This document shows, one piece after another, positions 4,199 to 36,200 of a stretch of DNA of 38,234 nucleotides. Made by a program: the position numbers and the translations under genes. Source of the stretch: Planctomycetota bacterium. GTDB lineage: Bacteria; Planctomycetota; Phycisphaerae; WQYP01. The stretch spans positions 1-38,234 of the forward strand of contig JAJZVR010000005.1 of the NCBI GenBank assembly GCA_021847065.1, read 5' to 3'. How positions within the stretch are numbered: the first letter of the stretch is position 1; every line of letters starts with the position of its first letter. The notes under the pieces were generated by a model. The model saw nothing but the letters and a program-made list of their open reading frames with translations. It searched no databases and was not told the origin of the DNA.

Positions 4199-7100
4199 TT
4201 GCGGCAGCACCGGAAACGAGGCCATTTTGTTGGTATATTGGCCGCGACTGACAAGTTGGTTACTGCCATGAAGAGCAGAAATGTAATTACGGAATCACCT
4301 CTTCTCTCCAGTGCTGGCTGGCGTGATTGCATTGATTCGCGCCTGCTCCGTGCTGCGCAGAATTGGCAAGAAGCACAGGAATTCAAGAGCCATGGCCATA
4401 CTCTCAGGCGGCTTTTCATAGACCTGACGATAGATGCGGTCCTTTGCGTGGAGGGCCGTCCCACTGTTTGCGTGAAAGATTCGAGGAGGATGTCGCCAAG
4501 TGAGGTCGAGGATTTGAGGCGGCGACTATGGAACATGGGGGCCACTGTCTTGCTGGTCACGGAGGGCACGCGCGACATAAAGGTGTATTCCACACTATTC
4601 AAACCCGCACCCGACGACCAAGATGGCAACAGGGCGCAACTCTCTCACGAGACGATACAAAGCCTGGAGTTGGCCGAACTTGCCCTGCGTTTGGGCCAAC
4701 TTATTAATCGCGTTGAGACCGGAGAAATCTACCGAGAAAATAAGCCGCTATTTGACCCTCAAAGTGCCGTTGATCGAACTCTTCTTGAAAATTTACGCTC
4801 GTTGCGTGATAAGATCCTTTCGGGACGGTCGCGGCAGGATTACCAGCAAGCCCACGCATTTATTGGCCGCTTCCTGTTTTCCAGTTATCTTCTGGATCGG
4901 GGCATAATCAGGTCGTCCTACCTGCAAAAAGCCCACCTCCCAGAAGCGGAGGATATGGCAAATCTTTTAGAAAAGGCGGCGGACGGCCCACAGGTTTTAG
5001 AGACACTGTTTAGCGCATTGCAACGAGATTTCAACGGATCGCTTTTCGGCAATTTGTTGGACAATCATAAAATTGATGGCACCACAATCAATTATCTGCG
5101 ACGCTTTCTCGCCGGAGACGATTTAGCTTCCGGGCAGTTGTCACTTTTTAAACTGTATGATTTCAGCTTTATCCCGGTGGAACTCATCAGTTGCATCTAT
5201 GAGGAATTTCTTGGAGCGGAAGCCAAAACGAGCGAGGGTGCTGTTTCGAGCGTAGAGACTAAAAGAGGTACCCAACGTGCGCTAGGCGCATATTATACTC
5301 CTCCCCGCTTGGCGGAACTGGTGGTGGACATCGCGACCGAGGGCTGGGACACCTTGCTTAATAAGCGATGTCTGGACCCCGCCTGCGGCTCCGGGATATT
5401 TCTTGTCATCATGTTCATCCGCATGGCGGAGGAGTGGCGCAAACGTAATCCCCGTGCCAATACCCGCCGTCGCTACGAAGAATTGATGCGTCTTCTGTCT
5501 GAGAATCTGCGGGGAATTGACACTCATCCGACGGCGTGCCTGGTTACATGCTTCAGCCTGTATCTGGCGTTTCTGGATCAAATGGACCCCAAGGAAATTA
5601 TCGACTTGCGGGAGGCCCTGGCCAGCGACGGAATGCGCAAGATTCTGCCGCGCATCCTATGGAAAAATGACGACACTGCTCCGAAGCCTCCACATTTCGC
5701 GACGGTCCGCGAATCAGATTTCTTTGAGGTCACGGCGGAAAAGGAGTTTGATCTTGTTATCGGCAATCCGCCCTGGGTGAGCCACCATCCCGCTCAGAAC
5801 GCCTATGCGTGGCTTTTTTCCGCAACCACAAATCCATATTTGAGCGAAATGCAGGCAAAGACAAAAAGGGAACAACTGGGTCCAACCCTGATTCCGGCAC
5901 ACGAACTGGCCATCGCATTTATGTGGAAAGCTGGATTGCACCTCAGGCCAGGCGGCCGTGTCTGCCAGATATTGCCGTCGCGAGTCTTTCTGAGCAATAA
6001 CACCGATCGTTTTCAAGCCGCATGGATAAGGAAGCAGCGGTTGGAAGTGGTGTGGCTATTAGCAGATTGGCGTCGCATACTATTTCCTTCGGCAACTTGC
6101 CCATGCGTGATTAGCCGTTACCAGCCGCGCGACGATGGGGAATTGTTGGGCGTTTTTGATTTCGTCACGCCAAAAGCTGAACTGCTCGACCCGCGGGAGG
6201 CGCTAATCCCCATATTTCCCGAAGACCGGAAAACGCTGTTTGAGTCGGATATTGTCTCGGCCGCGGAACGCGGCGAGGCCGCTGCAGCGTGGAAAAAACA
6301 GCACTGGGGGACGCCACGTGACCTCCGGCTTTTAGAGCGGCTGTTGAGGATGCCGCGCCTGAATCGGATGGTAAATGAACCTCCGCGGAATCCAGGCGCG
6401 GCAGCCAATCCTCCGAAGTACTGTTGGTACAAGGGACAGGGATTTCAGCCTGCGAGCGCAAGTACGAAAACGCCACATCAGTTGTTCTGGAAAAGATCGG
6501 ATCTTTTTCTTTCTGCCAACAGCCAGGTTTCGGGCTTGGTCCTGTCGCGGGATGAATGTAAGCCCGTTGGTGAGCTATACGAAAATGCAGGCCTTCATAG
6601 GGCGAAGATCCCATTATTATTTAAGGCCCCCTTATTACTTATCAACAAGGCTTGCACAAAATTTCTGTTCTCCGATTTTGATGTCCTTTTTCAGGATGAT
6701 TTTCAGTCAATTTGCGCGCCGAAGGAGGAGGAGGATGAACTGCTGTTTCTAACCGCTGTATTTTCCAGTTCGCTTGCGCAGTACTTTCTGTTCCATACAA
6801 CCGCCAACATTGGAATAGAGCGTGACATTGCACGATTAGAAGAAATCCTGGCTCTCCCATTCCCATTGCCGAGGGACACAGATGATCCGGCCCGAAGCAG
6901 GAGAATCGTTCTTGCATGCGCCGAATGCTTGCGGAAGCTCCGTGGACAGCCTGACGCCCTGCAAAATCGTTCGCGCCGCAAGTCGCTGGTGCTGGAAACA
7001 CAAAAACACCTTAACAAGCTCGTCTATGAATATTTCACAGTTTGCGATTGGGAGAGGCAACTCATCGAGGACACGGTAAATATGTTTCGCCCCAGTTCCA

Positions 7101-7534
7101 CACCCGGGTCGCTCGATTCAAAAAAACTTCTCACCGTGCAACGCTCGACGCCAACTCACCGAGAGGAATATGCGGAAACATTGATCAAAACCTTTCGCGG
7201 CTGGAGCAGGGTGCAAAAAGCGCTCTGGACTCAGTGCGCCCTAGCGAGCGATCTGGGGCTAGCGCTGATTACGTTGGGCATTGGCGGGAGGTCCAGGGAA
7301 TATAAGGAGTCGCCATCCGAACCTCGCGTGGCCAGCGTGCTTGAAAAGCTGCGTGATGTTACCGCGCGGGACGGGTCCGTTGCCCGCGTACTTCGAGGCT
7401 TCGTATTGTACGAACCGGATCGCGTTCACATCCTGAAACCGCTGGCCCGCCGCCACTGGACGAACACCGCCGCCTTGAACGATGCCGACGAGATTTTGAC
7501 CCGAATGATGGAGGAAGATGGATGGCGCGATTAA
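4199..7534 (+). CDS. Eco57I/type IIG-like N6-adenine DNA methyltransferase (R-M-like protein)
   Basis: 1111-aa ORF (an internal ATG at 4268 is an alternative start). SAM-binding motif DPACGSGIFL (about 5375) and catalytic NPPW (5765-5776). Type IIG-like helical segments FLFSSYLLDRGII and LYDFSFIPVELISCIYEEFLG. Confidence 0.9.
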   Translation: MRQHRKRGHFVGILAATDKLVTAMKSRNVITESPLLSSAGWRDCIDSRLLRAAQNWQEAQEFKSHGHTLRRLFIDLTIDAVLCVEGRPTVCVKDSRRMSPSEVEDLRRRLWNMGATVLLVTEGTRDIKVYSTLFKPAPDDQDGNRAQLSHETIQSLELAELALRLGQLINRVETGEIYRENKPLFDPQSAVDRTLLENLRSLRDKILSGRSRQDYQQAHAFIGRFLFSSYLLDRGIIRSSYLQKAHLPEAEDMANLLEKAADGPQVLETLFSALQRDFNGSLFGNLLDNHKIDGTTINYLRRFLAGDDLASGQLSLFKLYDFSFIPVELISCIYEEFLGAEAKTSEGAVSSVETKRGTQRALGAYYTPPRLAELVVDIATEGWDTLLNKRCLDPACGSGIFLVIMFIRMAEEWRKRNPRANTRRRYEELMRLLSENLRGIDTHPTACLVTCFSLYLAFLDQMDPKEIIDLREALASDGMRKILPRILWKNDDTAPKPPHFATVRESDFFEVTAEKEFDLVIGNPPWVSHHPAQNAYAWLFSATTNPYLSEMQAKTKREQLGPTLIPAHELAIAFMWKAGLHLRPGGRVCQILPSRVFLSNNTDRFQAAWIRKQRLEVVWLLADWRRILFPSATCPCVISRYQPRDDGELLGVFDFVTPKAELLDPREALIPIFPEDRKTLFESDIVSAAERGEAAAAWKKQHWGTPRDLRLLERLLRMPRLNRMVNEPPRNPGAAANPPKYCWYKGQGFQPASASTKTPHQLFWKRSDLFLSANSQVSGLVLSRDECKPVGELYENAGLHRAKIPLLFKAPLLLINKACTKFLFSDFDVLFQDDFQSICAPKEEEDELLFLTAVFSSSLAQYFLFHTTANIGIERDIARLEEILALPFPLPRDTDDPARSRRIVLACAECLRKLRGQPDALQNRSRRKSLVLETQKHLNKLVYEYFTVCDWERQLIEDTVNMFRPSSTPGSLDSKKLLTVQRSTPTHREEYAETLIKTFRGWSRVQKALWTQCALASDLGLALITLGIGGRSREYKESPSEPRVASVLEKLRDVTARDGSVARVLRGFVLYEPDRVHILKPLARRHWTNTAALNDADEILTRMMEEDGWRD

Positions 7535-9662: not shown

Positions 9663-11024
9663 CTAGGTTTTGGCGGATGTGGGGCGGTGGTCGATAAAGC
9701 GTGCGGGTTTGCGGGGATTGGCGGCGCTTTGTAATTGGCGGATGGCGGCGATGCTGGTAATGGTGATTTGGGGGTGAACCTTCAACAGTGCGCGGACTTT
9801 CAGCGCCAGACGATCACGGATGGCCGCGGTGTTGCGTGTGAGGCATACGTGGAGTTCCACGCGATCACTTAAATCATGCTCGCGATGGGCCACGACGGCG
9901 TAATCCTGCACTTCCGGGATGCTGCTGAGGCAATCAAAGATGGCGGATGGGAAAAGACTTGAGCCGCGAACTTTCAGTAATTGCCGCTTACGCCCCACGA
10001 TGGGACCCAGCCGCGGCGTGGTGCGGCCACAGGGGCATGGATCGGTGTATAGTGCGGCAATATCGCCGGTGCGAAACCGCACCAGTGGCATGGCCTGGAC
10101 ACCTAAGGGCGTGACGACCACTTCACCGAGCGTACCGGTTGGAACGGTGGCACCGTGATCATCGAGAATTTCCACCGCCGCCAATGCGGGGTTCAAATGT
10201 CCGCCTATGCACTTTGGGCCTTCGGCAAAGGTGCAGCAGGTTTCGGTACACGCATAGGTGCTTAGAGCCGGAACGCGCAATGTATCGGTCAGGCGATGGG
10301 CCAATGCATTGGGAATTAACGCCGCGGTGCGCAGTGGCTCGCCAATTCCGATGACCGCCTGAATTACTGACGATTGATTATCGCCTGGCGCTGTGCCGCA
10401 AGCACCGGCCAGCAGCGACGGCACGGTGATAACATAATTTCGGCGATCGCCGCAGAGCAAAGATTGCAGAATATCAAGCTGTGCCGCATACGCCGATCCG
10501 GCACGGATGCACGCCACCCCCAGTTTCTGGGCGCCAAGCCAATACGCCAGGCCCGCCACAAACATACGATCAAGTGCCAATGCCAGAGTCAAGGTATCAC
10601 CCTGGCATAGTCCGGCAATATTCAGCGCCACCGCCTCATTTTCCGCCAGGCGCTGCAAATCTGCCGCGGTCAGCGGCACCCGCAGGGGCTTGCCGGTGGT
10701 ACCGGAAGTTGTGACCCATTCCCGCACAGCATCAGGCTTGCAGGCAAAGGCCGCGTCGCCAACTGCCGCCAGTTGGTCTTTATCGGTCAGCACGCAATCT
10801 GTGAGGTGCTGCAATGTTTTTATGGAATGGGGCAAACGCCCGGCGTAAAGGCGTGATTTATCCGCATGACGGATATGCCGGCGCAAGGCATTAAGCTGTA
10901 ATGCCTGCCAGCGCTTTACCGGCCAGAATAAATGCTCACCGATTTGGGGAGCGTGGCTTTTACTCGGCGTTTTTGTTGATCCGCGTTTTTTTATCACAGA
11001 GCGTCCTGATTTTACAATCTTCAT
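9663..11024 (-). CDS. Adenylate-forming ligase, phenylacetate-CoA ligase (PaaK)/F390-synthetase-like
   Basis: 453 aa with P-loop-like VTTSGTTGKPLRVPLT, VRFRTGDIAALY, a Cys-rich CPCGRTTPRLG segment, and GRKRQLLKVRGSSLFPSAIFDCLSSIPEVQDYAVV typical of the PaaK C-terminal region. Starts within the stop of the upstream MMPL gene (4-nt overlap). Confidence 0.85.
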   Translation of the reverse strand: MKIVKSGRSVIKKRGSTKTPSKSHAPQIGEHLFWPVKRWQALQLNALRRHIRHADKSRLYAGRLPHSIKTLQHLTDCVLTDKDQLAAVGDAAFACKPDAVREWVTTSGTTGKPLRVPLTAADLQRLAENEAVALNIAGLCQGDTLTLALALDRMFVAGLAYWLGAQKLGVACIRAGSAYAAQLDILQSLLCGDRRNYVITVPSLLAGACGTAPGDNQSSVIQAVIGIGEPLRTAALIPNALAHRLTDTLRVPALSTYACTETCCTFAEGPKCIGGHLNPALAAVEILDDHGATVPTGTLGEVVVTPLGVQAMPLVRFRTGDIAALYTDPCPCGRTTPRLGPIVGRKRQLLKVRGSSLFPSAIFDCLSSIPEVQDYAVVAHREHDLSDRVELHVCLTRNTAAIRDRLALKVRALLKVHPQITITSIAAIRQLQSAANPRKPARFIDHRPTSAKT

Positions 11025-14000
11025 TTTGCATCAAAGTTTATGGTCAATAGCAGACAATGGCCAGCATCCCAGATCAGTAATTTGTGCGGGAAAGTTCCCC
11101 GGTCATAGTTTTGATATTGAATTTCAATGTTCCGCTGCGCACTGGTGACTCGGCAAACACGCAAATAACCCGCCGGTCCGGCGAACGTCGCGTAGTGATG
11201 ATGGCCTTTGAGGATAAGAGTGTGATTGCCGGTATTAAACTGTTGTGGCCGGGAAGTCAGGTTTGCGGGCAGTCGCAGCGCTAAAGCTGTATCCACCGCC
11301 AAATACTTAGCCAGGCTTTCAGGAAAATCTGCGGCTTTGTGCAGTACCGTGGGCTTGGTCCCGCAAACACGCACATCACAGAGCAGTGTTCCAAATTCTG
11401 AAGCACACGTTACGCGTAGGGTGCCAAGCGCGTGGCCTTTTACCTGCCCGATCATACTGAATTGATGACCTTGCCAGTTCACATCGGCAAAAAACTGCTT
11501 ATTACATTGGCGGGGAAATGCTAACAGCGATTTCTGGGCGGCGGCGGGTGTCGGGGGCGGTGTTATTGGCGGACGATAGGCCAACGGCGGCGGCACGCTG
11601 CAACAACCACCTAATACACCGATCAGCAGAATCACAATTACCAGCAACACCGCTGCGCGCCAGGCATTGAGCACCACACGGAAAATACGTTGGCCCCCCG
11701 CCGCTGCCGGTGGATGAAGAATAAGTCTTACCAGCGGCCCGACGATAAAGTAACTGGCCAGATAGCCACCGAGAATTCCGGCGGTCAGAGTCATACCAAT
11801 CCAGTGTAAAACGGGGTGGCCCGCCAGAATCATAGCTGCGGTGCCCAGAATGGTTGTTGCCGCACAAAGGAAAGTGGCGGAATTGCGGTTTCCCGCGCCT
11901 ACTGTAAGCGTCCGGAGCGCCGGATCGCTGGCGGCATAGATACCATAATCCACAGCCACACCCATGGTGAATAACATTGGCACCAAGCTAAGGAGATTCA
12001 AACCACCGCCCCACCACTGTGCGACGCCCAGCAACCAGATAAAGCCAACGCCCAGCGACACAGCCGCGATGGCCGCTATATCCAGGCGTCGAAAATAAAT
12101 CCAGAGAGGAATTAAAATCAGCAATGCCACCCAGGGGAACAGATGTTTGGCCTCCATCCGGGCATGATACGATGCGTTGAGATACAACACCTGGCCGCAA
12201 ATGATGGACACCGCCGGCAGATCATGCCGCACTTCCGCAGCCCATTGCGTGGCGAGCTTAGGTGACAGGGACGCATTGAGTTGCACGGTGGAAGATATGG
12301 AGATGTCATGCGGGAGAATTTCCACCACACCGGGAAACAAGCTTGCCGGGGATTGTTGTAAACGCGGCAATGCCGATTCGGCAATGTTTGGAGATTGCCA
12401 GGATTTTACCGCGGCATCAAAGGCATCGGAGCGCAAGTCCGCTGCGGAGGCGGCATGGGCGAGCAGCATTTTGGCGCGGTTGATTTGTTGAGGATTCCAG
12501 AATGCCCGCCACGCCGCCAGGCGGCGTTCGGCGGTCAGTGGATCAGGAAGAATGGCGGACGGGGTGGTATAACCGGCGATCAGGTGCCGGGTTTTGAGAA
12601 TAGCAAGAGTGTGATCTAATATTTGCAATTCGCTTAAGGCTTGGGCAGCGGAGGGCTGATGAATGGTAATTACGCCTGATTGGCGCAGATGCCCCCATAC
12701 CTTGGCGAACATGGTTTGATCCTGCTTAAGCGCTACGGAGGAGCCATCCAAAGAGCGCCCGTTGGCGGTATAGCCGACGATAAGTGCCCGGCTAGCCAGC
12801 CAGAACGTGATGAGAATAAATGCGAACGTTGCGAAGACTTTCAGTAATCCGGGACGCATCCAATAAGCCGATCTGAGAGATGAGGACACCGCGTTGCGCG
12901 AAGGAGGGACTGTGGTTGTCGAATCATTTAAACTCGTACCGGTATTATTTTCCATATTGGCTTTAAGATTCATCTCGACCGGGGACGTATTTTCTTGCCC
13001 ATCGATTGGGGGATGATCAGGTGAAATGCGTGCCTGGGTGTTCTCGGCGGCTTTGGTGGATCGGCAGACCCATGGCCCCAAATATGCCGGTAACACGAGG
13101 AATGTTACCAGCCAAATACACCCGGTGGCACCGGCGATAAACAGGCCCAGCGCCTGGAGGCCGGGGGCGGAACTTGCCGCCAGCGCGCCGTAGCCGGTCA
13201 TGCTGGTGCAGACGCTCATGGAGATGGGGCCCAATAATTCCCGCGCCGCCAGAGCTGGCATATTGCTTTCAAACCGCCCCGCGCGCCGTGCCATACGATT
13301 CATGGCCGCCATAAGTTGGATGCCATAATCCGTGGTGGCTCCGCATAAAAGTCCGTCGAAACCCAGGACGATTAAAGGAATGTGCAATCGCAACAGGCCC
13401 GCGATGCCCAAAGCTGTTCCCAGCCCCACCATGGGCGGAATCAGGCACACGACCACAGCGCCGATGCGCCGGAAATAAATGGCGATAACGCCGGCCACCA
13501 GAAGCGTTCCGACAATTGAAATGATTTTGAGATCTCGCTTTACCAGACGCTGATTCTCCACAAAGTTTCGGTAAGGCCCCACCATCCATACGCGCAGAGT
13601 CGGCATTTTCTTTTGCGCTTGGGCAATCGCCGCACGGATGATTGCCAGCATCTTTTCTGATTTTGCAACATTTTGCGGCCTGAAAGGCGGCGCCAGAATC
13701 ATCATGGCGTGACGGTCATTGCCACTGACCAGCGCCGAACCGGAAAAATGCGCCCCCGTTCCGGGACTAAGAGATTTAAGCCGTGCCAGCAGCAACTGCC
13801 GCATATCCAGTGGATCATACTGCAATTGCGCGGCGATCATCTGCCCGGCCGGCCCGGCCATTTTTTCCACCTGCTGATGAAAATGCCGATCCAGCCAATG
13901 TGAAGAAAGGCGGTGGTGGAAAATATTGAGCTGTGAATGTGAAAGGAGAATCGGCGCGCTATTTCGCAGGGCGATTTGTGCCTGCAGTTGTCGGGATTCC

Positions 14001-14383
14001 GATGCACCATACCAAAGAGTTGAAAACTCATGCGTTTTTTGCAGACCATGAGCCAATAATTGAACTGCGGCCCGCAGATTGCCCGGCTGGCCAGAGGCAA
14101 AATGCACATCCAGCCGCATCGCATCGGCCAGACCGTTGCGATCCTCGGATAGTCGCACATCATGTATGGCCGCACTATGGGCGGAAAAAAAACTCAGCAG
14201 ACTGGTTTGCCACACGATGTTATTCGATGCGGCAAACAGCAGGCCACCGAGAATCAGCAGCACAGCGGTTAAAATAAGGCGATGTGCCCGCAAGAGTTCG
14301 TACCAGCGCAACATCAGCCCCGCGAGCCGATCAGATTGCGAAGCACTGCTTGGTGGGACGCCCGAATAATCCGAATCCTTCAT
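11021..14383 (-). CDS. MMPL/RND-family exporter fused to a DUF3261-like lipoprotein domain
   Basis: 1120 aa with two RND/MMPL-type membrane halves (GLGTALGIAGLLRLHIPLIVLGFDGLLCGATTDYGIQL; LNLLSLVPMLFTMGVAVDYGIYAASDPALR). After the last helix bundle comes a lipobox-like LLIGVLGGCCSVPPP and a soluble beta-rich C-terminal domain. Confidence 0.85.
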   Translation of the reverse strand: MKDSDYSGVPPSSASQSDRLAGLMLRWYELLRAHRLILTAVLLILGGLLFAASNNIVWQTSLLSFFSAHSAAIHDVRLSEDRNGLADAMRLDVHFASGQPGNLRAAVQLLAHGLQKTHEFSTLWYGASESRQLQAQIALRNSAPILLSHSQLNIFHHRLSSHWLDRHFHQQVEKMAGPAGQMIAAQLQYDPLDMRQLLLARLKSLSPGTGAHFSGSALVSGNDRHAMMILAPPFRPQNVAKSEKMLAIIRAAIAQAQKKMPTLRVWMVGPYRNFVENQRLVKRDLKIISIVGTLLVAGVIAIYFRRIGAVVVCLIPPMVGLGTALGIAGLLRLHIPLIVLGFDGLLCGATTDYGIQLMAAMNRMARRAGRFESNMPALAARELLGPISMSVCTSMTGYGALAASSAPGLQALGLFIAGATGCIWLVTFLVLPAYLGPWVCRSTKAAENTQARISPDHPPIDGQENTSPVEMNLKANMENNTGTSLNDSTTTVPPSRNAVSSSLRSAYWMRPGLLKVFATFAFILITFWLASRALIVGYTANGRSLDGSSVALKQDQTMFAKVWGHLRQSGVITIHQPSAAQALSELQILDHTLAILKTRHLIAGYTTPSAILPDPLTAERRLAAWRAFWNPQQINRAKMLLAHAASAADLRSDAFDAAVKSWQSPNIAESALPRLQQSPASLFPGVVEILPHDISISSTVQLNASLSPKLATQWAAEVRHDLPAVSIICGQVLYLNASYHARMEAKHLFPWVALLILIPLWIYFRRLDIAAIAAVSLGVGFIWLLGVAQWWGGGLNLLSLVPMLFTMGVAVDYGIYAASDPALRTLTVGAGNRNSATFLCAATTILGTAAMILAGHPVLHWIGMTLTAGILGGYLASYFIVGPLVRLILHPPAAAGGQRIFRVVLNAWRAAVLLVIVILLIGVLGGCCSVPPPLAYRPPITPPPTPAAAQKSLLAFPRQCNKQFFADVNWQGHQFSMIGQVKGHALGTLRVTCASEFGTLLCDVRVCGTKPTVLHKAADFPESLAKYLAVDTALALRLPANLTSRPQQFNTGNHTLILKGHHHYATFAGPAGYLRVCRVTSAQRNIEIQYQNYDRGTFPHKLLIWDAGHCLLLTINFDAK

Positions 14384-15219
14384 GCCGGCCCCACCGGCGC
14401 GAAACTGTGCGGATTTAATCGGAGATTAACTTTGGTATGGCGCAGCCAGAACAGGCTTTGATCGCCATTTTTGGAGACAATACGAATGAATGTTAAATGG
14501 GGGCGGCGCGCGTTGTTTGCGGTTTTATCCACGTTTGCACGCATTGCAAAACCCAATTGAATTTCCTCAACGGCCTGCCTGAGCACTCCCCGGCGCGGGC
14601 GCAACGTGAACAGTGAAAGCTGCATGGATGGTGATTTATGGACGATCTTGGGAGCTTTGCCGGGAACATGGGGAATTTGCGGCATGGGGCGCACCGCACG
14701 ACTCATGCTGATCCGATATTCGGCGCTGACTTTTTCGGCGTTACCCAGAGACCAGGCCGCGAATTGCCGCATAACAATGCCGATGGCGGGTTGGGAATCC
14801 ACCGTGCCGGTGCGCCAATGTGAATCCGATTCGTTGCGCATAAAAATATTTCGTCCCGAGAGAATATAGCAGGATCGATACGGCCAATTGGTTTGAAACC
14901 GCACTTGCCGGGGCCGGGCGATGGTAATAACCCCCAGGCTGAAAAACGGTTTCCGGAGCACCTGCAATTTTTTTTCACATACAAAGGCGGATTGAACGGA
15001 CTTAACCGTCCCCATCGCCGCAATGATTTTTACCAATTCAGTCCGGGCAGTGAGACGGGAACCGGCATCGGCGCGCGAAGTTGCAATCGTCAAACAAGCC
15101 AAGAATAAGAGGAAAGCTCGCAGCGCCACAATATCTGTGCGCAAGAGGTCAACGCGACATGCGACGGGGCCATCGGCAGGTGATTTTATTATCCGTTGAA
15201 ACATGCCAAGTGATTTCAT
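14380..15219 (-). CDS. LolA-like outer-membrane lipoprotein carrier protein
   Basis: 279 aa: signal-like N-terminus, LVKIIAAMGTVKSVQSAFVCEKKLQVLRKPFFSLGVITIARPRQVRFQTNWPYRSCYILSGRNIFM, a LolA-family beta-half-barrel pattern. 4-nt overlap with the MMPL gene. Confidence 0.75.
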   Translation of the reverse strand: MKSLGMFQRIIKSPADGPVACRVDLLRTDIVALRAFLLFLACLTIATSRADAGSRLTARTELVKIIAAMGTVKSVQSAFVCEKKLQVLRKPFFSLGVITIARPRQVRFQTNWPYRSCYILSGRNIFMRNESDSHWRTGTVDSQPAIGIVMRQFAAWSLGNAEKVSAEYRISMSRAVRPMPQIPHVPGKAPKIVHKSPSMQLSLFTLRPRRGVLRQAVEEIQLGFAMRANVDKTANNARRPHLTFIRIVSKNGDQSLFWLRHTKVNLRLNPHSFAPVGPA

Positions 15220-15257
15220 AGCACCTCAATGGAAGCGAGATCGTTCCAGCCCACCGC

Positions 15258-18200
15258 TCACAGCGACTTCAGTGCTTCCCGCCAGCACCATATCATACCC
15301 GAAAGTCCGACATTTGAGGCAGCGATTCTTAACAGACAATGGCGATATAAGGCTCTTATTTCCCTGGTTCTCTGGAAGCCGGGAAACAGCAATTTGGCGG
15401 CAATAATTTGCTTCCGCGTGGCCGCGAAAGGAACTTTTGGTTTATCGTAGCGCTGCAAAACAGTGTCCGTGAGAGCTTTGATAAACCGGTGATATGGCGG
15501 GCTGTTGGGCGTAACAACGGCTTGAGTCAACCACGCCTCCGCGGCGGCAGGCTGCTTGACAAGTACCGCATCTGCCGCCAACCACAAAGCGTGAATGGCT
15601 CGACCGGTGGGTTCACCACCCATTTTTACCGCGAACTGGTTGATGTGAATCGCCTTAAGCCGATGACCGATAGCTCGGTAGGAAGCAGCAAGGTTCGCCA
15701 ACATCCATGGCTGCACATCAGCACGGTCACGCCAATCGCGCATCCACGCGATAACCCGGCGATATCGGCCAAAGCGTTTTAGAGCATAGCCTGTTTTTCC
15801 CCATAATTCGGTAGCTCCGCAAAGAATTTTACGGTAACGGCGCATCAACCATGCAAACATCTGAAACTTGTTATGGTCGGCAAGCTGTTGAATAAATTCC
15901 AGCAAGGCTAAATGCAGTGCTCGGGCGTCAGTGCTTAATGAATCAACAAACTCCCGGCACAACTGCCATTTATTTCGGCGTGCCAGGCAACGCACGGACA
16001 ATTCACTGATGATCGCATTGCAGTCGTCCTGATTGAGCGCTTCGCGAACGTAATACCCGATTGAATCACTCCAGTTCCTTTTAGCAAGCACCTCCAATGC
16101 CCGCTCCAGCAGCCATGGTTGCGCGGCGGGCATCCGGCAGAGGCTGATCAGTTCGGTCATCGCCATTTTTTTATCATTGCGTGCGGCGGCCATTTCCAGA
16201 CGGGCCATTAACGAGCGATCAGGAGTGGCATGTTGGCTGAGTTGCTTTTCCAATTTAGCGGCATCGGCAAGATTTCCAGCGGCTAACTCCATATCAAAAA
16301 GATTGCCGACGGCATAGGTGTATGCAGCATCCAATTCAACAGCACGCCGGAAGTTGTCTCGGGCGGCGATCATATTGCCATTTTCCCGGTGGGCATCACC
16401 AAGATAGCCATACGCAATGGGAGCTACCGGCCAAAGACGAACCAATGTCTCGGCCATTTGAAGGTACCGCTTCTTATCGCCCGACTCATTGTACCATTCG
16501 ACGAGTCGACAGGTTCCCCAGTAGTAACGAGGAGATTCCTTAACCAATTCAGCCATTTGGGCAATGGCTTCGGCACGCCGCCCGCGACGATATAAAATCC
16601 AAGCGGCCCGTCCCCGCAGCTCAAATGGGACATCGCCATTAAATACTTCGGGATGGCAGGCGGCGAGGGCTTCTTCCAGGCGCCCCGCCTCGGCGAGACC
16701 GCAGGCTCGCTCATCATACGCTTCAATATTTCGAGGGTCGGCTGCAATGGCACGGTTATATGCGGTCAGTCGCTCATCAAATTGTTCCGGCAACTGCAAC
16801 ATTCGCGCCAAATTAAGCCATACCCGGCTGTCGCCGGAACGGCTTTGGGTAAGTTGTCGGGCGAGCGTGAGCGAAACATCCGGCTGTTTAAGTTCTTGGC
16901 TCCATGATTTCAGCGCATCCCAGCCCCATGGATAATCAGGTTCAAATTGGATTGCACGTTGCAATTGCTCCAAGGCTTTCCGGCGCACACCCATGCGCCA
17001 AAGTATATCCGCCAACATTCCATGATTACGCACATCAAACGGGCTGCGGGAAATAATTTCCTCCAGAACCATTCGCGCTTTTACCAGGTCGCCCGAACGG
17101 GTGTAGAGCGCGGCGAGTTGTCGGGCGGGTTCGCTCCAGCAGCGATCTATCTCCAGCGCCTGTTGAAGCGCTGTCCGTTGTCCGTCGATATTGCCCATGG
17201 CACCATAAACGCCTGCCAAGTCAAGAAAAAGTTTCGGCAACAAGTTGAATTTTTCCACCGCGGCACGCCCGTTGACCAGGGCATCTTCCAGTTTGCCCAT
17301 TTGTGTGAGTTGCAGCGTTACGACGGACCAGGCTTGCCAAAGATCGGGGCGTGCCTTGAGCGCGGCTCGAAGCGATTCAAGCACCTCCTGAGCGTCCAGT
17401 ACCTGCACCGCCTGCGCACGGTATGCCGACAGACATTCGCCAAATATGGTCTGGCGGACAATCTCGGAATGAATAAAGGCCAAGGCCTCTTTGCGACCCG
17501 CTGGTGTATTTTCACTGGCGAGCAATTGATGGATTGCGGGCGTGTAATCAACAGACAGACCAATGGCCTTTTTGAGAGCGTTGATCGCCTCCGGGTGTCT
17601 TCCCTGCCGCATTGCCACCGAGGCATAATAATTGTGCGAAGCAGGACTGTTGGGTTCAAGCGTCAAGGCCATTTGTGCCCCCACCGCGGCCTGATCCACA
17701 TCCTGTATATTCAGCAACGCCGCAACCAATTCTCGACGCGTCCATGCGTCATTGGGGTGCAGACCCATTAGATCCCGCACGGCGCCTAAATATCGGTCGG
17801 GCGACTGATCCCGGAACCAAATAACCCGCAACTGTAATAGTGGATAGTGGTGCGGAAACTTTTCACACTGTGCATCGAGGTATGACTCTGCCTCGCTATT
17901 TCCAACGCTTTGAGCCAGCAGTTCTGTCACCCGCCGCTGCGCGTCCATGGCCAGAGGTTCGGCATCCACTATTTTCCGCCAGAGTGTCAGCGCTTCACGC
18001 GGATCACCCTTGTAAAGGACAATATCCGCTGCCACACGCAGCCATTCGCGCTGCGGACAGACTCCCCGGGCTTTGTCCATATACTCATCAGCCTGCTGCA
18101 GCCGTCCATGACGGGCGTTGGCATTTGCCGCCAGCAGCAGCAGCGAACCATCTTCCGGCAATAAACGAAGGGCTTGCTGCAGCATGTCAAAAGCTTCGGC

Positions 18201-20318
18201 GGTTCGATCCAATTCCTCCAAAGCCCAGAACAACAGACCGGCGGGCCGCCCGGTTCTGGCACCAAATTTATTAAACCGCTCTTGCAACAGTCCGAGTACG
18301 TCAATTTCCTGCTTAAAGTGCCGAGAAGCGATGAAATAGGATCGCGCGAAGCGTTCATTTTTATCGTCAAGGCAGCAGGCAAAGCGATAAAGTTCCAGGG
18401 CTTGATCAAATGCACGTTGATCCCAAAGTACACCGGCCAAATCAGCGTATGATCCCGCGGCCAGGGGCATAGCGCGAATCACCCGCCGCAATATTTGACG
18501 AACCGTGCCGAAATTCCGGGCATCGTCCATGAGCTCTCTGGCATAGAGATTCCGAAATATCGGATGCGCTTCTCTGGATTCACATATCTTTTGAAGCATC
18601 TCGATACGCTGGTCGCGTCGCGCCAATGTCCGAAGACACTCGATCTTTCCTAAAAGCAATCCCGAATTATGCGGATATTGGGCCAGCAATTTTTCGTAGC
18701 ACGCCAGCAATGTTCCGGGATCCGCATCGTAGGCGGCAAGAGCCTGTTCCGCCGTCAGCGTCAGACGGTGATCGGGGGCGGCCGCCCGCATGGATTCCAG
18801 CGCGGCGCAGGCGCAATGGCGGTCATGCCGATGCAACGCGGCATTTACGTCGTGAAGCCCATCGTAAAGCGATGCATCGCAAAGATGAACCCCTTCGAGC
18901 AACTGCTGTTGTTCGATAGGGACAAGCACAATTCCCAGCGGTCCGGTGGAGGCGTAACGTTCCAGTGTCAGCTCAGAGACAAATTCGATCGCCGGACGAA
19001 TGTAGGGGTCACGAATAATCAGCGTGCCGCGTAATTCGTCGTAGCCGATAACGGCCTGCAGATGGGCGCTGGCCGGTTCGACAGTGGCAAGGGCGAATGG
19101 TATACCGCGGTCAATAAGTTGTCGGCTGGTTTCCCAGGTCACACGAAATTCCCGGACCAACCAACCATGATCACCGGCCCATTGTCGCAAGGCGCGGTCC
19201 GGCGTTCCGTCGTAGCAAATTTCATGCGCCAAAGCGAGATGATCGATGGGCTTATTCCAGAATCGTCCAAGGCTTGCGACCACCGCGGGGCCACAGGTCA
19301 GGTGGTGTTGCCGGACAAAACCCACCGGCAGCATGACGCGCGAAGCGCTTCCATCGGCGGCCTTTAATTTGGCGGCGATCTTCTGATAGAAACGATTCTT
19401 AGATTTGGCGGCAAGCTCGGCGGCGGCGCAAACATCGCCGCAAAAATAAGCCGCATCTGACTGAGTTCCCATAAGCCAGTCACGTAATTGTTTATCCATT
19501 AAGGGGGCGAGATCGAACGCTCTGGAAAAATTCATCCGGGCATCCTGGTAACTCCGCAATTCCGTTTGCAGCGTCGCGAGTTGCAATACGAGTGCCACAC
19601 TTTCCATTCGCTGCGTTGCCTGCGTCAATAGTTCCAGTGCTTGGTCATCCTTATCCAGCAGTTGCATGAGATGCGCGGCGGATTGTACGGCGGGCCGATA
19701 CCAAGGCCGGATTTCCAAGCCTCGCATAACCGCGGAAAGCGCCGCGTCATAGCAATCCTGCCGCTCCAAAACAGTGCATCGTTCTACCGCCAGCCAGGGG
19801 TCATCTGGAAATATTTCATCAGCTGCATCCAACATTTTGCCTGCGACCATGAAATCCCGCATTATTCCTGCAATCCGGGCTTGGATTCCGTACCAGTTGG
19901 ACCGCAATTCAGCAGGGGCACAATCCGGCATGGCATGAGCGCGGATAAATTGCCATGCATCGAGCGGGCCGTGCTGATTTAATAGTACATGCGCATAGTA
20001 ATACCATGCTTCAGGCGCATCCGGATCTTCGCGATAGGCCCGATAGTGCAGTATTTTGCCCAACTGCGAACTACCAAGATTCCCGGCCAATCGCCCCGCC
20101 ATGATCCGGCCCGCGGTTGAACGCCATTGCGGTAATGGCGCGATATGCTGCGACTTTTGATACGCCTGCAGGTATAAACCCGCATTATATAGTTTTAATA
20201 CCGGCTCAACTTGCTCAAGACTAATCTGCAATCCCTGTCTCCTGCACGTTACAAATGCCAGTATTGTTTTGCCGATGAATCTGGCTTTCCCAATTTCCGC
20301 TTTGCAATGGGCAAGCAT
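15258..20318 (-). CDS. Giant tetratricopeptide-repeat protein with an internal C39-like peptidase domain
   Basis: 1686 aa with many TPR-like helices (e.g. AIAADPRNIEAYDERACGLAEAGRLEEALAA). An internal segment MLPVGFVRQHHLTCGPAVVASL...SAHLQAVIGYDE...IIRDPY has the Cys/His/Asp arrangement of C39-like peptidases. Start uncertain. Confidence 0.85.
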   Translation of the reverse strand: MLAHCKAEIGKARFIGKTILAFVTCRRQGLQISLEQVEPVLKLYNAGLYLQAYQKSQHIAPLPQWRSTAGRIMAGRLAGNLGSSQLGKILHYRAYREDPDAPEAWYYYAHVLLNQHGPLDAWQFIRAHAMPDCAPAELRSNWYGIQARIAGIMRDFMVAGKMLDAADEIFPDDPWLAVERCTVLERQDCYDAALSAVMRGLEIRPWYRPAVQSAAHLMQLLDKDDQALELLTQATQRMESVALVLQLATLQTELRSYQDARMNFSRAFDLAPLMDKQLRDWLMGTQSDAAYFCGDVCAAAELAAKSKNRFYQKIAAKLKAADGSASRVMLPVGFVRQHHLTCGPAVVASLGRFWNKPIDHLALAHEICYDGTPDRALRQWAGDHGWLVREFRVTWETSRQLIDRGIPFALATVEPASAHLQAVIGYDELRGTLIIRDPYIRPAIEFVSELTLERYASTGPLGIVLVPIEQQQLLEGVHLCDASLYDGLHDVNAALHRHDRHCACAALESMRAAAPDHRLTLTAEQALAAYDADPGTLLACYEKLLAQYPHNSGLLLGKIECLRTLARRDQRIEMLQKICESREAHPIFRNLYARELMDDARNFGTVRQILRRVIRAMPLAAGSYADLAGVLWDQRAFDQALELYRFACCLDDKNERFARSYFIASRHFKQEIDVLGLLQERFNKFGARTGRPAGLLFWALEELDRTAEAFDMLQQALRLLPEDGSLLLLAANANARHGRLQQADEYMDKARGVCPQREWLRVAADIVLYKGDPREALTLWRKIVDAEPLAMDAQRRVTELLAQSVGNSEAESYLDAQCEKFPHHYPLLQLRVIWFRDQSPDRYLGAVRDLMGLHPNDAWTRRELVAALLNIQDVDQAAVGAQMALTLEPNSPASHNYYASVAMRQGRHPEAINALKKAIGLSVDYTPAIHQLLASENTPAGRKEALAFIHSEIVRQTIFGECLSAYRAQAVQVLDAQEVLESLRAALKARPDLWQAWSVVTLQLTQMGKLEDALVNGRAAVEKFNLLPKLFLDLAGVYGAMGNIDGQRTALQQALEIDRCWSEPARQLAALYTRSGDLVKARMVLEEIISRSPFDVRNHGMLADILWRMGVRRKALEQLQRAIQFEPDYPWGWDALKSWSQELKQPDVSLTLARQLTQSRSGDSRVWLNLARMLQLPEQFDERLTAYNRAIAADPRNIEAYDERACGLAEAGRLEEALAACHPEVFNGDVPFELRGRAAWILYRRGRRAEAIAQMAELVKESPRYYWGTCRLVEWYNESGDKKRYLQMAETLVRLWPVAPIAYGYLGDAHRENGNMIAARDNFRRAVELDAAYTYAVGNLFDMELAAGNLADAAKLEKQLSQHATPDRSLMARLEMAAARNDKKMAMTELISLCRMPAAQPWLLERALEVLAKRNWSDSIGYYVREALNQDDCNAIISELSVRCLARRNKWQLCREFVDSLSTDARALHLALLEFIQQLADHNKFQMFAWLMRRYRKILCGATELWGKTGYALKRFGRYRRVIAWMRDWRDRADVQPWMLANLAASYRAIGHRLKAIHINQFAVKMGGEPTGRAIHALWLAADAVLVKQPAAAEAWLTQAVVTPNSPPYHRFIKALTDTVLQRYDKPKVPFAATRKQIIAAKLLFPGFQRTREIRALYRHCLLRIAASNVGLSGMIWCWREALKSL

Positions 20319-20587: not shown

Positions 20588-21004
20588 CTACTGAATCGGA
20601 CGACGGCTCTTCGATTTACTTCTGCCAACATGGCCGGCATGCTTCCGCATTGCGGGATTGCCGGCATGCGGGCGTCCCATTGACTGCACATGATAAGCGT
20701 TAATGATGGCCTTGATCAGGCCTGGAAATCGACCTTCTATTTCCGCGCACCGCGCGGTGTTGTGCATTTGAACACCGCGACGTTCGCTGCGGATTAACCC
20801 CGCATCCCGAAGCGCCTTGAAGTGCTGCGAGAGTGTTGATTTGGGTATGGCCTGCTCGTTGATGTTCAGAAAATCCGCGCAGGCATGCGGGCAATCGGAT
20901 GCAACAATATCGGCATAGATCGCTGCACGCACGGGGTCAGAGAGTGCGTGCAGTATGCCTTCGAGGGTAATGTCCTGAACCGATGGATGAAAAAGAGGTC
21001 TCAT
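20588..21004 (-). CDS. ArsR-family HTH transcriptional regulator
   Basis: 138 aa: ILHALSDPVRAAIYADIV...IPKSTLSQHFKALRDAGLIRSERRGVQMHNT, the ArsR winged-helix signature. Confidence 0.88.
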   Translation of the reverse strand: MRPLFHPSVQDITLEGILHALSDPVRAAIYADIVASDCPHACADFLNINEQAIPKSTLSQHFKALRDAGLIRSERRGVQMHNTARCAEIEGRFPGLIKAIINAYHVQSMGRPHAGNPAMRKHAGHVGRSKSKSRRPIQ

Positions 21005-21025
21005 GGCAGTGTACTATACCCGAAC

Positions 21026-21062
21026 TTGACTTGCCGTTCCATGAGTTCTAATATTCGGAACT
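21026..21062 (+). promoter_or_regulatory. Sigma70-like promoter with overlapping palindromic operator candidate
   Basis: TTGACT (21026-21031), 17-bp spacer, TAATAT (21049-21054). The inverted repeat AGTTC-N9-GAACT (21044-21062) covers the -10. Located between divergent arsR and SDR. Confidence 0.6.
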
Positions 21063-21135
21063 ATGCAACTAAGCGGACGCCCGGGCGTTATTCCGGGGCC
21101 GGACTTAAGTGCAGATATTATTAAAGGAGATTCTC

Positions 21136-21885
21136 ATGGGTAAGCTCGCAGGAAAAGTTGCGGTTGTCACGGGAGCGTCCAAGGGTATTGGAGCCGCTAT
21201 TGCCAAGGCGCTGGCGGCGGAAGGCGCGTCGGTTGTCGTGAACTACGCCTCAAGCCGGTCCGGTGCCGATACCGTCGTTGCCGCCATCACGGCGGCGGGC
21301 GGCAAGGCAGTCGCTGTGCAGGGCGACGTTTCCAAGAAAGCGGACATTGACCGTCTGTTCAGCGAAACAAAGAAGGCCTTCGGACGCCTGGATATTCTTG
21401 TGAACAATGCGGGAATCTACGAATTCGCACCACTGGAGAAAATCACCGAGGAGCATTTCCATAAACAATTCAATTTGAATGTGCTGGGCCTGGTTCTCAC
21501 GACGCAGGAGGCACTGAAATATTTCAGCGCCGCCGGCGGCAATGTGATCAACATCAGTTCGCTTGTGAGCACGCTGGCACCGGCGAATGCGGCGATTTAC
21601 AGCGCAACCAAGGGCGCGGTGGATACCATTACCGCATCGCTGGCGAAGGAACTCGGCGCACGCAGAATCCGGGTCAACGCCGTGCGTCCGGGGTTGGTGG
21701 AGACCGAAGGCGCAGTTCTCAATGGCTTCACAACCGGTGATTTTCATGATCAATACGTTAAGGCCGCGCCACTTGGCCGCATTGGTCAACCGCAGGACAT
21801 CGCGGCCGCGGTTGTCTACCTTGCGTCGGACGACTCGGCATGGGTTACCGGCGAAACCCTGCTGGTTTCGGGTGGTCACCGCTGA
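21136..21885 (+). CDS. SDR-family oxidoreductase (3-oxoacyl-ACP reductase/glucose dehydrogenase-like)
   Basis: MGKLAGKVAVVTGASKGIGAAIAKALAAEGA (TGxxxGxG), NNAG, YSATKGA (YxxxK), C-terminal SDR pattern WVTGETLLVSGGHR. AAAGGAGA precedes the ATG. Confidence 0.95.
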   Translation: MGKLAGKVAVVTGASKGIGAAIAKALAAEGASVVVNYASSRSGADTVVAAITAAGGKAVAVQGDVSKKADIDRLFSETKKAFGRLDILVNNAGIYEFAPLEKITEEHFHKQFNLNVLGLVLTTQEALKYFSAAGGNVINISSLVSTLAPANAAIYSATKGAVDTITASLAKELGARRIRVNAVRPGLVETEGAVLNGFTTGDFHDQYVKAAPLGRIGQPQDIAAAVVYLASDDSAWVTGETLLVSGGHR

Positions 21886-23606: not shown

Positions 23607-23800
23607 GGTGTGATCCTCCAAAAAAGGCTGCCTTCCATGCCCTATCATCAAAACTCTTCCGTTAAAATGCAACAGTGGGGGGGCATGCGCAACATTTCTT
23701 TTTCTCTAATATTACGCAAATACGATTCCGATATCCTGATTTTCAGAGATCAAGCGATGTTGCTCTGATCCATACTTTATTTCTTCAGGAGGAACTCATC

Positions 23801-24982
23801 ATGCGTCGCATCAACTCACAAATGTTTGCAGCCATCACCATGGCACTGGCCAGCACGGCCACCCTGGCGGCAGGTGTCGCCCACGTCAACGCCAGCCCCA
23901 CCGTTGCCGCCGGGTATTCGCTGACCACATTCGCCTCACCATTTACAGTACCGGGTTTAAATCAGGGAATTATTCCCGGCGCTTCACAAGTTGTCAGCGC
24001 ACCAGATGACATAACCGTTGCCGGTAACAGCGTATTTATCGGATGGGGCAACAATGTCATGTCCGATGGCAGTGACGGCGGTCAAAGCGTTGTGGCACAA
24101 TATACACTGACCGGTCAACTGGTTAATCACTTTAACGTAACCGGACATATCGAAGGCATGGCCATGGGAAGCAATGGCATGCTCTACACCGATCAAAATG
24201 AAGATGGCAACTCCACATTGACCGTCATCAACACCGCGACGGGATCGCAAATGCGTTATGGCTATCCCACCCCGTCTGTCCATGGCGGCGGCTTTGACGG
24301 CCTGCAATTTGTCAACGGCAATCTGTATGCCTCCGGGTCAAATCCCGACAACGGTGGCGACGGCCCCGGTCAGGTTAACAGCCATCCGGTGATTTACCAG
24401 GTTAATGCGAATCCCAATTCTTATCCCGCGACAGCCACCGCGATGGGCGTGGTCTGGGGCAATGATATGGCAACCAATGCCATTACCGGTCAAAGCACCC
24501 AGATGAACGTGTTTGATCCTGACTCCTTGAATCTCACGCCGAATGGCAGTCTGCTATTGTCCAATGAAAGCGGAGCACAGTTAACCGAAGTTACCAACCC
24601 GGGTCCAAATCAGAGCATTTCACTGTTGAATCTCACCAATGCCAGTGGCAATCCGGTCAACACCGATGACACCGGTTTCGCCACGGCCTCCAAAGGCACG
24701 CTGTTATTTTCCGATGTAAAAAATAACGTGGTTTATGCGTTGACGGCCAATAATGGCTTTACATTGAATCAGGCTTATTCATCTGATAAAACCAATCACA
24801 GCTTGGATATGCTGAACTTCAGCACCGGGGTGTTGACCCCGATTGTCACGGGCCTGGGCGGACCGGCCGGTATCGGCTTTATTAATGATCCGTCGGCTGT
24901 TCCCGAACCCGCCACTCTGGCCTTGATGGTGCTGGGTGGTGCGTGCTTGTTCCTGATGCCACGCAAGAAAATGTCCCGCTGA
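23801..24982 (+). CDS. PEP-CTERM sorting-domain-containing secreted protein
   Basis: AGGAGG directly upstream of ATG 23801, signal peptide MRRINSQMFAAITMALASTATLAAGVAHVNA, C-terminus VPEPATLALMVLGGACLFLMPRKKMSR (PEP motif, hydrophobic helix, basic tail). Confidence 0.93.
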   Translation: MRRINSQMFAAITMALASTATLAAGVAHVNASPTVAAGYSLTTFASPFTVPGLNQGIIPGASQVVSAPDDITVAGNSVFIGWGNNVMSDGSDGGQSVVAQYTLTGQLVNHFNVTGHIEGMAMGSNGMLYTDQNEDGNSTLTVINTATGSQMRYGYPTPSVHGGGFDGLQFVNGNLYASGSNPDNGGDGPGQVNSHPVIYQVNANPNSYPATATAMGVVWGNDMATNAITGQSTQMNVFDPDSLNLTPNGSLLLSNESGAQLTEVTNPGPNQSISLLNLTNASGNPVNTDDTGFATASKGTLLFSDVKNNVVYALTANNGFTLNQAYSSDKTNHSLDMLNFSTGVLTPIVTGLGGPAGIGFINDPSAVPEPATLALMVLGGACLFLMPRKKMSR

Positions 24983-33262: not shown

Positions 33263-36200
33263 ATGGTTACAGAGTTTCTAAATAAATCAATGACTAAAAT
33301 TTTCGGCTCGCGCAATGGTCGGCTGATTAAAGCCTATCGCCAGCGCGTGGAAGCGATTAACGCATTCGAACCGGCCATCCGCGTATTGACCGATGCGCAG
33401 ATGCGGGCCAAGGCGGACGAACTGCGGAAACGCATGGCTGATGGCGAAACCGACCTGGCACTTTTGCCGGAAGCTTTTGCGCTCATGCGGGAATCCATGG
33501 ATCGGAATATCGGTTTGCGCAATGCCTTTAACCCGGCATATTCTTTTGATGCCGGCAAGCTTACACCTGAAGCCTTGGCGCAATATCAGCAGGTCAAGGC
33601 CAAATGTGTCGGTGAGCATGACTGGCGGTTTGTGGAAATTCCCCCGGATCTGTATCAAGCCATCCGTGATGCGGTGCCCGATGCCCGACCCCCCTACCGC
33701 GCGCGGCCATTTGATGTGCAGCTTATCGGCGGCATGGTTTTATATGATGGAAAAATTGCGGAAATGGCCACCGGTGAAGGTAAAACCTTTGTGGCACCGC
33801 TGTCGTGTTTTCTCATGGGCCTTTCCGGCAAGCATTGCCATGTTGTGACGGTTAATGATTATCTGGTGCGGCGCGATGCGGCGTGGGTGGCACCGGCGTT
33901 TTTTGCACTGGGCATGTCGGTGGGGTATGTGCAATCCCACATGGACAATGAACCGCGACAAAAAGCCTATCAATGCACCGTGACATACGGCACCAACAGT
34001 GAATTCGGCTTTGATTATCTGCGCGATAACATGAAACAATCTCTGGCCGAACAGGTGCAAGGCCCCCTGGATTTTGCCATTGTGGATGAAGTGGACAGCG
34101 TGCTGATTGATGAAGCCCGCACGCCGCTGATTATCAGCGGGCCGGCCCATGATGATTCTCCGCGCTATCGGCAGGCCGATGAAGTAACCCGCAAACTTAT
34201 TGCGGCTCAAAAGCCATGGGACATGGCCAATGCGCGCGTGGAAGCACTTAAGCGGAAAATTAAAGGCTCTGAAGGCGATATGAAAAACGCGCGCGGAGAT
34301 GCCGCTAAAATCGCCACCATTCAGGCATCGATAGCCGAGGCGCAAAAAGAACTGGTGGTGGCGGAGGCGGAGTTGGCCAAGCAGGTGCAGCTGTATGAAG
34401 TGGAACTGGATCGCAAAACCGCACATTTGACGCATGAAGGTATCCGCAAGGCGCAGGAATTTGCGGGAGTCGGGTCGTTTTATGTTGGTGGCAACATGGA
34501 TTGGCCGCACCTGCTGGAGCAGGCATTGCGCGCCCATGTTGTGTATGAAATTGACAAAGATTATGTGGTGCAAAAAGGCGAAGTCATTATCGTTGATGAG
34601 TCCACAGGCCGTTTGATGGTGGGCCGCCAATGGAGCGACGGCCTGCATCAGGCGGTGGAAGCCAAGGAACGCGTTACGGTAAAACCCGAAACCCAAACCA
34701 TGGCCACCATTACTCTGCAAAACTTTTTCAAACTCTACAAGCGTATCGCGGGCATGACCGGTACCGCGATGACCGAATCTGAAGAGTTCGGAAAAATTTA
34801 TAAGCTGGAAGTGGTCACGATTCCCACCAACCGGCCCCTGACACGACAGGATTTTGAAGATCTCATTTTCATGAATGAAAATGCGAAATGGGCGGCAATT
34901 GTCGAGCAGATAAAAGAAGTGACAGAACGCGGACAGCCCGTGCTCGTGGGCACAACGAGTGTGGAAAAATCCGAGCGACTCTCACAAATCCTCACGCGGC
35001 AGCATGGCATAGAACATGAAGTGCTGAACGCTAAAAATCATGAACGTGAAGCGGAAATTATTGCGAAAGCCGGTACACAACAGGTCAACAAGCAGGGGCA
35101 AACCGTCGGACGTGTCACGATTGCCACGAATATGGCGGGGCGCGGTACGGATATTTCCCTGGCTCCGGGCGTGCTGGAGGCGGGCGGATTATTTGTGCTG
35201 GGCACGGAACGCCACGAATCGCGGCGAATTGACAACCAGCTTCGCGGGCGATCGGGCCGACAGGGCGATCCGGGCATGTCACGGTTTTTCTTAAGCCTGG
35301 AAGATGATCTCATGCGGCTGTTCGCCGGCGATTTTATGCTCAAGGCCCTGCAGAGCCTGGGCATGAAAGAAGACGAAGCTATTGAACACGGCATGGTTTC
35401 CAAGGCTGTAGCCCGAGCGCAAAAGAAAGTTGAGGAGCGCAATTTCGGTATCCGAAAAAACCTGCTGGAATATGATGAAGTCCGCAATTATCAGCGCAAT
35501 TTCTTTTACACGTCGCGGCAGGCGATTCTGGAAGGCCGGAATTTGCAGGAAATTATTTTTGACACCATCGGCGACTCAGTGCGCGATGCGGTGGCGCATT
35601 ATCTTGACAGAGATTATGTGGCGACATGTGTGGCGGAATGGGTGCGTTTGACGTTCAACACGGTCATTGATCCTCAGGATTTGCGGGATACGGAATTGGC
35701 GGTGCTGGAAATGACGATTAAGGATAAGGCCCGTGAAGACGCGCGCAGCAATATTCACAGCGCCATTTCAGAATTTATGGATCCCGATGCGCATCCGGAA
35801 GATTATGATTACGCGGGAATGTCCTCCTGGGCGATGAGTCAGTTCAAAGTACAGATCAGTCAGGCGCAGTTGAAGAAAATGCAACGCGATGAAATTATTG
35901 ACACGCTGGTGGAAAAGGCGCTTGATCTTATTGATCATAAAGACGTCAACCCGCTGGCCAAATATCTGGTGAAAGGCTATCCGCAGCAGCAGTTGGCGCA
36001 GTGGGCCAATGATAAATTTGAATTCAATATTCCAGTTGCGGATTTAACGGGAAAAACACAGGATCAGGCCATTGAATTGATTCTTAACAACGCCCGGAAG
36101 GCGTATCAACAGCGTGAAATAAGCTATCCGGTGGATTACGCGATGGAAGCGACAGCCGGTGCCGGAGGCATTGAAAATGTTTACGCCTCCGAACAATTGG

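Follow-up and report, generated by a model that had tools for sequence, protein, structure and literature searches.

The 38,234-nucleotide contig JAJZVR010000005.1 of a Planctomycetota bacterium (assembly GCA_021847065.1), hereafter the window, carries a putative operon encoding a tetratricopeptide repeat (TPR) protein with a peptidase C39 domain, a LolA-like carrier, a fusion of an MMPL transporter and a DUF3261-like domain, and an acyl ligase. The original prediction described a packed four-gene run containing accessory and export genes of aryl-polyene type, and proposed that it could serve a distinct system with a different cargo. The open reading frames lie exactly at the predicted positions:

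15258–20318, minus strand: TPR-C39 protein gene, 1686 aa as called, from the open reading frame list and domain matches
14380–15219, minus strand: LolA-like periplasmic carrier gene (ApeL/LolA2_flexi-like), 279 aa
11021–14383, minus strand: RND/MMPL transporter (ApeM-like) in in-frame fusion with a DUF3261-like, LolB-type domain (ApeN-like), 1120 aa
9663–11024, minus strand: PaaK/FlxY-type AMP-forming acyl ligase gene, 453 aa, with predicted activation of an aromatic starter acid

A gap of 38 nt (15220–15257) separates the TPR-C39 and LolA genes, and 4-nt overlaps join LolA to MMPL (14380–14383) and MMPL to the ligase (11021–11024). The last three genes keep the same order at 57–81% identity in same-genus genomes. 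The TPR-LolA spacing is likewise 38–39 nt in four further members of the genus whose junction has been sequenced. By both features, this packing is not due to chance. Promoter and terminator scans gave chance-level results only. None of the 24 window proteins scanned matched a ketosynthase (KS), acyl carrier protein (ACP) or dehydratase, as had been predicted.

Ligase, carrier and transporter fusion

The ligase contains an AMP-binding domain (Pfam, 4.9e-13), and its best NCBIfam model was FlxY (NF053551; 2.7e-102, 342.7 bits). FlxY of Chitinophaga pinensis makes 4-coumaroyl-CoA in vitro (PMC3992019), and ApeH is the starter-acid ligase of the Escherichia coli aryl-polyene cluster (PMC8253772). 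By the FlxY model, the window enzyme is predicted to be the aromatic-acid-activating starter ligase of an aryl-polyene/flexirubin system. Distant ligase matches in Treponema and a spirochaete (L146–L148) were discarded as relatives of the system, the other genes being missing there. The carrier matched LolA2_flexi best among NCBIfam models (2.4e-9). Its fold model (pLDDT 75.6) retrieved LolA structures as the best PDB matches, with E-values down to 1.3e-11, and this model-based search firmly confirmed the LolA identity. The predicted assignment to accessory and export genes of the aryl-polyene/flexirubin type was thereby upheld by the FlxY and LolA2_flexi models, together with the ApeL-ApeM-ApeN gene order.

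Profile searches for the predicted families were successful for AMP-binding, MMPL (Pfam, 7.8e-12) and C39; LolA fell just under its Pfam cut-off (8.2e-5, 22.8 bits against 23.6), and PF11659 (DUF3261) gave no direct match in the window fusion protein. Homologues support the latter domain. A standalone protein in genome G011 (locus L143) matched the window domain with an E-value of 2e-18, and PF11659 matched this protein (3.6e-4) and one at locus L145 (9e-4), at scores of 20.8 and 19.5 versus a gathering threshold of 22.3. Other genera of the family carry the DUF3261-like domain as a gene of its own. Identification of the MMPL C-terminus as DUF3261 through these related sequences is indirect but good. 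A fold search with the domain was not relied on, its model having a pLDDT of 55.6 and the top match, LolB (E 0.01), lying among GFP noise. Two features define the fused region:

11024–11605, minus strand: DUF3261-like domain, residues 927–1120 of the fused protein
11594–11689, minus strand: extra hydrophobic segment with an intact lipobox, LLIGVLGGC (Cys 927), where MMPL meets DUF3261; it lines up with the lipobox at the N-terminus of standalone DUF3261 proteins

All six fused proteins compared have a strongly hydrophobic junction stretch ending in L-[GA]-G-C and aligned with the standalone lipobox. Conservation of the junction cysteine favours lipidation, although these six related sequences form a small sample. 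The DUF3261 domain may either stay tethered to the pump or, since the internal lipobox is intact, be freed by signal peptidase II. An internal translation start for DUF3261 was rejected, as no start codon is conserved at the junction in the six genomes. We considered whether the fusion might be a natural transporter-lipoprotein polyprotein, its internal signal peptide and lipobox being lipidated in place and signal peptidase II then releasing an outer-membrane lipoprotein. This is a tentative idea that we regard as rather doubtful; if true, processing would fix the pump:acceptor ratio at 1:1. A literature search at title and abstract level revealed no clear precedent for internal-lipobox polyproteins. 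A C45-type acyltransferase domain takes the place of DUF3261 as the fusion partner of the transporter in genera g4 to g7. This combination of MMPL with a C45-type acyl-CoA:6-aminopenicillanic acid acyltransferase (PF03417) was seen at L052:3757–8028 (G013) and in homologues from G010, G011, G012, G019, G024 and G026, a different partner at the same pathway position; the G013 version ends in added TPR repeats.

Biosynthetic genes elsewhere in the genome and in relatives

Core biosynthetic genes were located by sequence searches of the organism's own assembly (345 contigs, 88% complete), which returned seven KS matches. Two contigs carry candidate pathway genes, including KSs paired with chain-length-factor (CLF)-like partners:

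Contig C89 (L042): LPLAT, hotdog, ACP, hotdog, acyltransferase, KS, CLF-like KS
Contig C275 (L040): CmlS-like (halogenase-like) flavoenzyme (3.2e-55), KS, CLF-like KS

Both KSs keep C-H-H and both CLF-like partners lack the Cys; this pairing, characteristic of aryl-polyene/flexirubin systems, is thus present twice. The C89 KS is of the PRK09185 type by best model. The C89 ACP retains its DSV serine and matches the PRK09184 model (7.4e-17, 61 bits); of 14 control genomes, only that of Bacteroides ihuae gave a match to this model. One of the hotdog genes flanking it matched a FabZ model (1.3e-7); the other matched FabA and ApeI-like models only weakly, with scores under the cut-off. The C275 flavoenzyme carries WIWFIP, an instance of the WxWxIP motif. 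Two candidate short-chain dehydrogenase/reductases (SDRs), at 21109–21885 in the window and the fatty-acid-synthesis FabG on C131, are not tied to the pathway. The remaining KSs are ordinary fatty-acid or unassigned types. Contigs C56 (two adjacent KSs) and C237 (a KS-like gene beside a methylase) were rejected as partner clusters on the basis of FabF-like scores and the lack of ACP or dehydratase neighbours in the stretches read. PF13723 was too weak as a presence marker and missed the CLF-like proteins of this genome.

Co-occurrence was scored in 61 genomes from 40 genera, with thresholds of E≤1e-40 for the ligase and E<1e-9 for the ACP. The ligase and the transporter were each found in 26 genomes and an aryl-polyene-type ACP in 24. 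Ligase and ACP agreed in 57/61; three of the four discordant genomes were ligase-positive without an ACP match. By genus, 11 had both, 29 had neither and none had only one. G015, the sole well-completed genome of the family without the ligase, also lacks the ACP. The neighbourhood comparison called for by the original prediction thus shows LolA, MMPL-DUF3261 and ligase tracking the aryl-polyene ACP by genus, with TPR-C39 outside the conserved set.

With ten of the eleven positive genera in a single family, Fisher values for the co-occurrence do not count as independent evidence, and physical linkage carries more weight. In an uncultured Phycisphaerales genome (G013, L142), the LolA, MMPL and ligase genes run straight on into CLF, KS, acyltransferase, ACP, hotdog and LPLAT genes homologous to those on C89. 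G016 has ACP, acyltransferase, KS, CLF, ligase and DUF3261 within 6 kb, and G028, from another family, has ACP, KSs, MMPL, ligase and LolA within about 25 kb. In Planctomycetes bacterium B3_Pla (L145) a single cluster runs LolA-DUF3261-ketoreductase (KR)-KS-KS-ACP-acyltransferase-ligase-aromatic lyase-MMPL-KS-CLF, with the lyase (541 bits) adjoining the ligase. A separate observation comes from another family of the class (G050, L177:3105–15000), where a different set of MMPL, ligase, flavoenzyme, KS and LPLAT genes accompanies a weak aryl-polyene ACP match.

For the window organism the pathway loci are split over contigs C76, C89 and C275 and form no single contiguous cluster. The corresponding three blocks are intact across the genus at about 52–91% identity with catalytic residues kept, and blocks 2 and 3 are syntenic on long contigs apart from block 1. 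They lie on separate contigs of 45, 105 and 27 kb in G002 and of 71, 70 and 113 kb in G005. Because the blocks are conserved but apart on such long contigs, their dispersal is not only an assembly effect. Contiguous clustering is a usual feature of such pathways and no mechanistic requirement.

Pathway assignment and alternatives

Aryl-polyenes are protective pigments that other bacteria make and place in the outer membrane. We read the LolA-like protein, MMPL-DUF3261 and the ligase as the export and starter-activation arm of a flexirubin/xanthomonadin-like aryl-polyene pathway whose genes lie at three or more loci, with a probability of roughly 85%. This assignment is based on gene content, homology, co-occurrence, linkage in relatives and lipobox conservation, from which we infer the substrates, product, transport order and cleavage. 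The ligase would adenylate an aromatic acid and load it onto a dedicated ACP or CoA. The two KS/CLF pairs of C89 and C275, with two candidate hotdog dehydratases and a reductase, would extend this starter to a polyene on the C89 ACP, which the C275 halogenase-like flavoenzyme may decorate. C89 acyltransferases would then place the polyene on a lipid, to be moved by the MMPL/RND protein to the outer face of the inner membrane, carried through the periplasm by LolA and received by the LolB-like DUF3261 lipoprotein. Transporter and lipoprotein are one lipobox-containing polypeptide in the window genus, which signal peptidase II may cut.

Several results weigh against this assignment. The ligase misses the FlxY equivalog cut-off of 520 bits, making it FlxY-like and not filed as FlxY; the carrier does not reach the LolA2_flexi equivalog cut-off, nor the C89 ACP the curated PRK09184 cut-off of 70. 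An aromatic ammonia-lyase, sought as a source of the starter acid, is absent from the whole family, and no dedicated ketoreductase was identified. The three loci are never adjacent in the window genus. As ten of the eleven positive genera belong to one family, with G028 the only addition, the genera are not independent.

Alternatively, the operon, C89 and C275 may form one pathway whose product is a non-polyene lipid, such as a resorcinol-like, ladderane-like or saturated aryl lipid. The KS, ACP and hotdog types concerned are common to ladderane, resorcinol and aryl-polyene clusters, and both the missing flexirubin-cluster ammonia-lyase and the absence of the block 3 flavoenzyme from some genera would fit such a product. 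Against this, the best-scoring models are flexirubin ones for ligase and LolA and PRK09184/PRK09185 for the C89 ACP and KS, the export genes follow the Ape order, and the homologous B3_Pla set has its aromatic lyase beside the ligase; we therefore consider a non-polyene product unlikely. The distinct export or lipid-tailoring system originally proposed, with Lol/MMPL parts borrowed for another cargo and TPR-C39 as its specific component, would account for the lack of core genes in the 38-kb contig and for the kept TPR-LolA spacing and conserved C39 residues. The core is nevertheless present in the same genome and the same genera, four further lineages have it joined to these genes, and TPR-C39 is missing from most of the family and occurs in G060 without the system. 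The original prediction named a core set elsewhere, or a lack of co-conservation of the four genes, as grounds for dropping the idea, and both were observed. This proposal is accordingly very unlikely: the operon represents a known system in dispersed form, not a new one. A non-functional remnant, in which a surviving export arm makes nothing, might be suspected from the dispersed arrangement and the fragmented, incomplete assembly, but is scarcely credible given three intact blocks with preserved catalytic residues throughout the genus.

Three known clusters come closest to the system described here. The E. coli proteins ApeL (LolA-like), ApeM (RND) and ApeN (DUF3261, LolB-like) are encoded next to one another, and their proposed task is delivery of the aryl-polyene lipid to the outer membrane (PMC8253772). 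The window shares the LolA-RND-DUF3261 order with ApeA-R of E. coli CFT073 and Xenorhabdus doucetiae, and its genome has counterparts of the starter ligase, KS, CLF-like KS, ACP and acyltransferases, with candidate counterparts of the hotdog dehydratases. Unlike ApeA-R, the genes here occupy three or more separate loci, the ApeM and ApeN counterparts are fused, the ligase is of the PaaK/FlxY type, an extra KS/CLF pair and a halogenase-like flavoenzyme are present, and no ApeG-like gene or dedicated KR was identified. Likeness to the flexirubin clusters of C. pinensis and Flavobacterium johnsoniae (FlxA–FlxY) lies in the best models for ligase and LolA and in predicted exporter and acyltransferase genes; scores below equivalog cut-offs, the lack of a FlxA-type ammonia-lyase in the family and gene dispersal set the window apart. 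The B3_Pla cluster has LolA, DUF3261, KS, ACP, acyltransferase, ligase (39% identical), MMPL and KS-CLF in common with it, but all its genes sit together at a single locus, it brings a KR, an aromatic lyase and an amine-oxidase-like flavoenzyme of its own, and it keeps MMPL and DUF3261 separate.

In the papers searched, no aryl-polyene work on this planctomycete family was found; an antiSMASH arylpolyene call exists for the Phycisphaerae strain P. mikurensis (PMC8882080). Since aryl-polyene genes appear dispersed in most genera of the family, cluster-based genome mining may undercount these pigments. The natural fusions, of the pump with a LolB-like acceptor or, in sister genera, with a C45-type acyltransferase, suggest which proteins work side by side in aryl-polyene lipid export, a step still poorly understood.

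The TPR-C39 gene and window surroundings

The lead gene product combines a Peptidase_C39_2 match (8.5e-10) with many TPRs (Pfam):

19002–19319, minus strand: peptidase C39-like domain, residues 334–439; genus members and a distant G060 homologue share its Q, C, H and D residues

Conservation of these residues indicates that TPR-C39 is probably an active papain-like enzyme. Relatives carry stops upstream of 20231, and the true start is thus probably the TTG at that position, preceded by the SD-like (Shine-Dalgarno-like) sequence AGGAGACAGGG. The four genes do not travel as one conserved unit. TPR-C39 is linked to the others within a single genus, is absent from G007 (94% complete), where no remnant was found at the junction, and is represented in other genera of the family only by an unlinked fragment in G009. 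G060 encodes a 30% identical homologue and has no close ligase or transporter homologue. TPR-C39 is therefore probably a genus-level neighbour, possibly co-transcribed, and not a core pathway part; a role for it in the pathway is unsupported. The 1802-aa G060 protein (L134:8755–14163) adjoins an Hsp70-like gene, a context that may guide the search for the original role of the family.

Positions 20588–21885, which separate the TPR-C39 gene from that for the DNA polymerase III delta subunit, encode a regulator resembling ArsR and a divergent SDR resembling FabG. As the TPR gene, or LolA in G007, directly adjoins the delta gene in the genus relatives checked, this segment looks like an insertion specific to the window genome. 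The stretch that separates the operon from an outer-membrane efflux gene holds an Eco57I-like restriction-modification methylase (4199–7534, 1111 aa), adjoining open reading frames of 225, 223 and 101 aa without family matches. The SecA protein (33263–36967, 1234 aa) may contain a large insertion, since its DEAD match spans about 500 residues for a 290-position model. The genus also keeps a PEP-CTERM-tailed protein (23675–24982) close to the delta-subunit gene.

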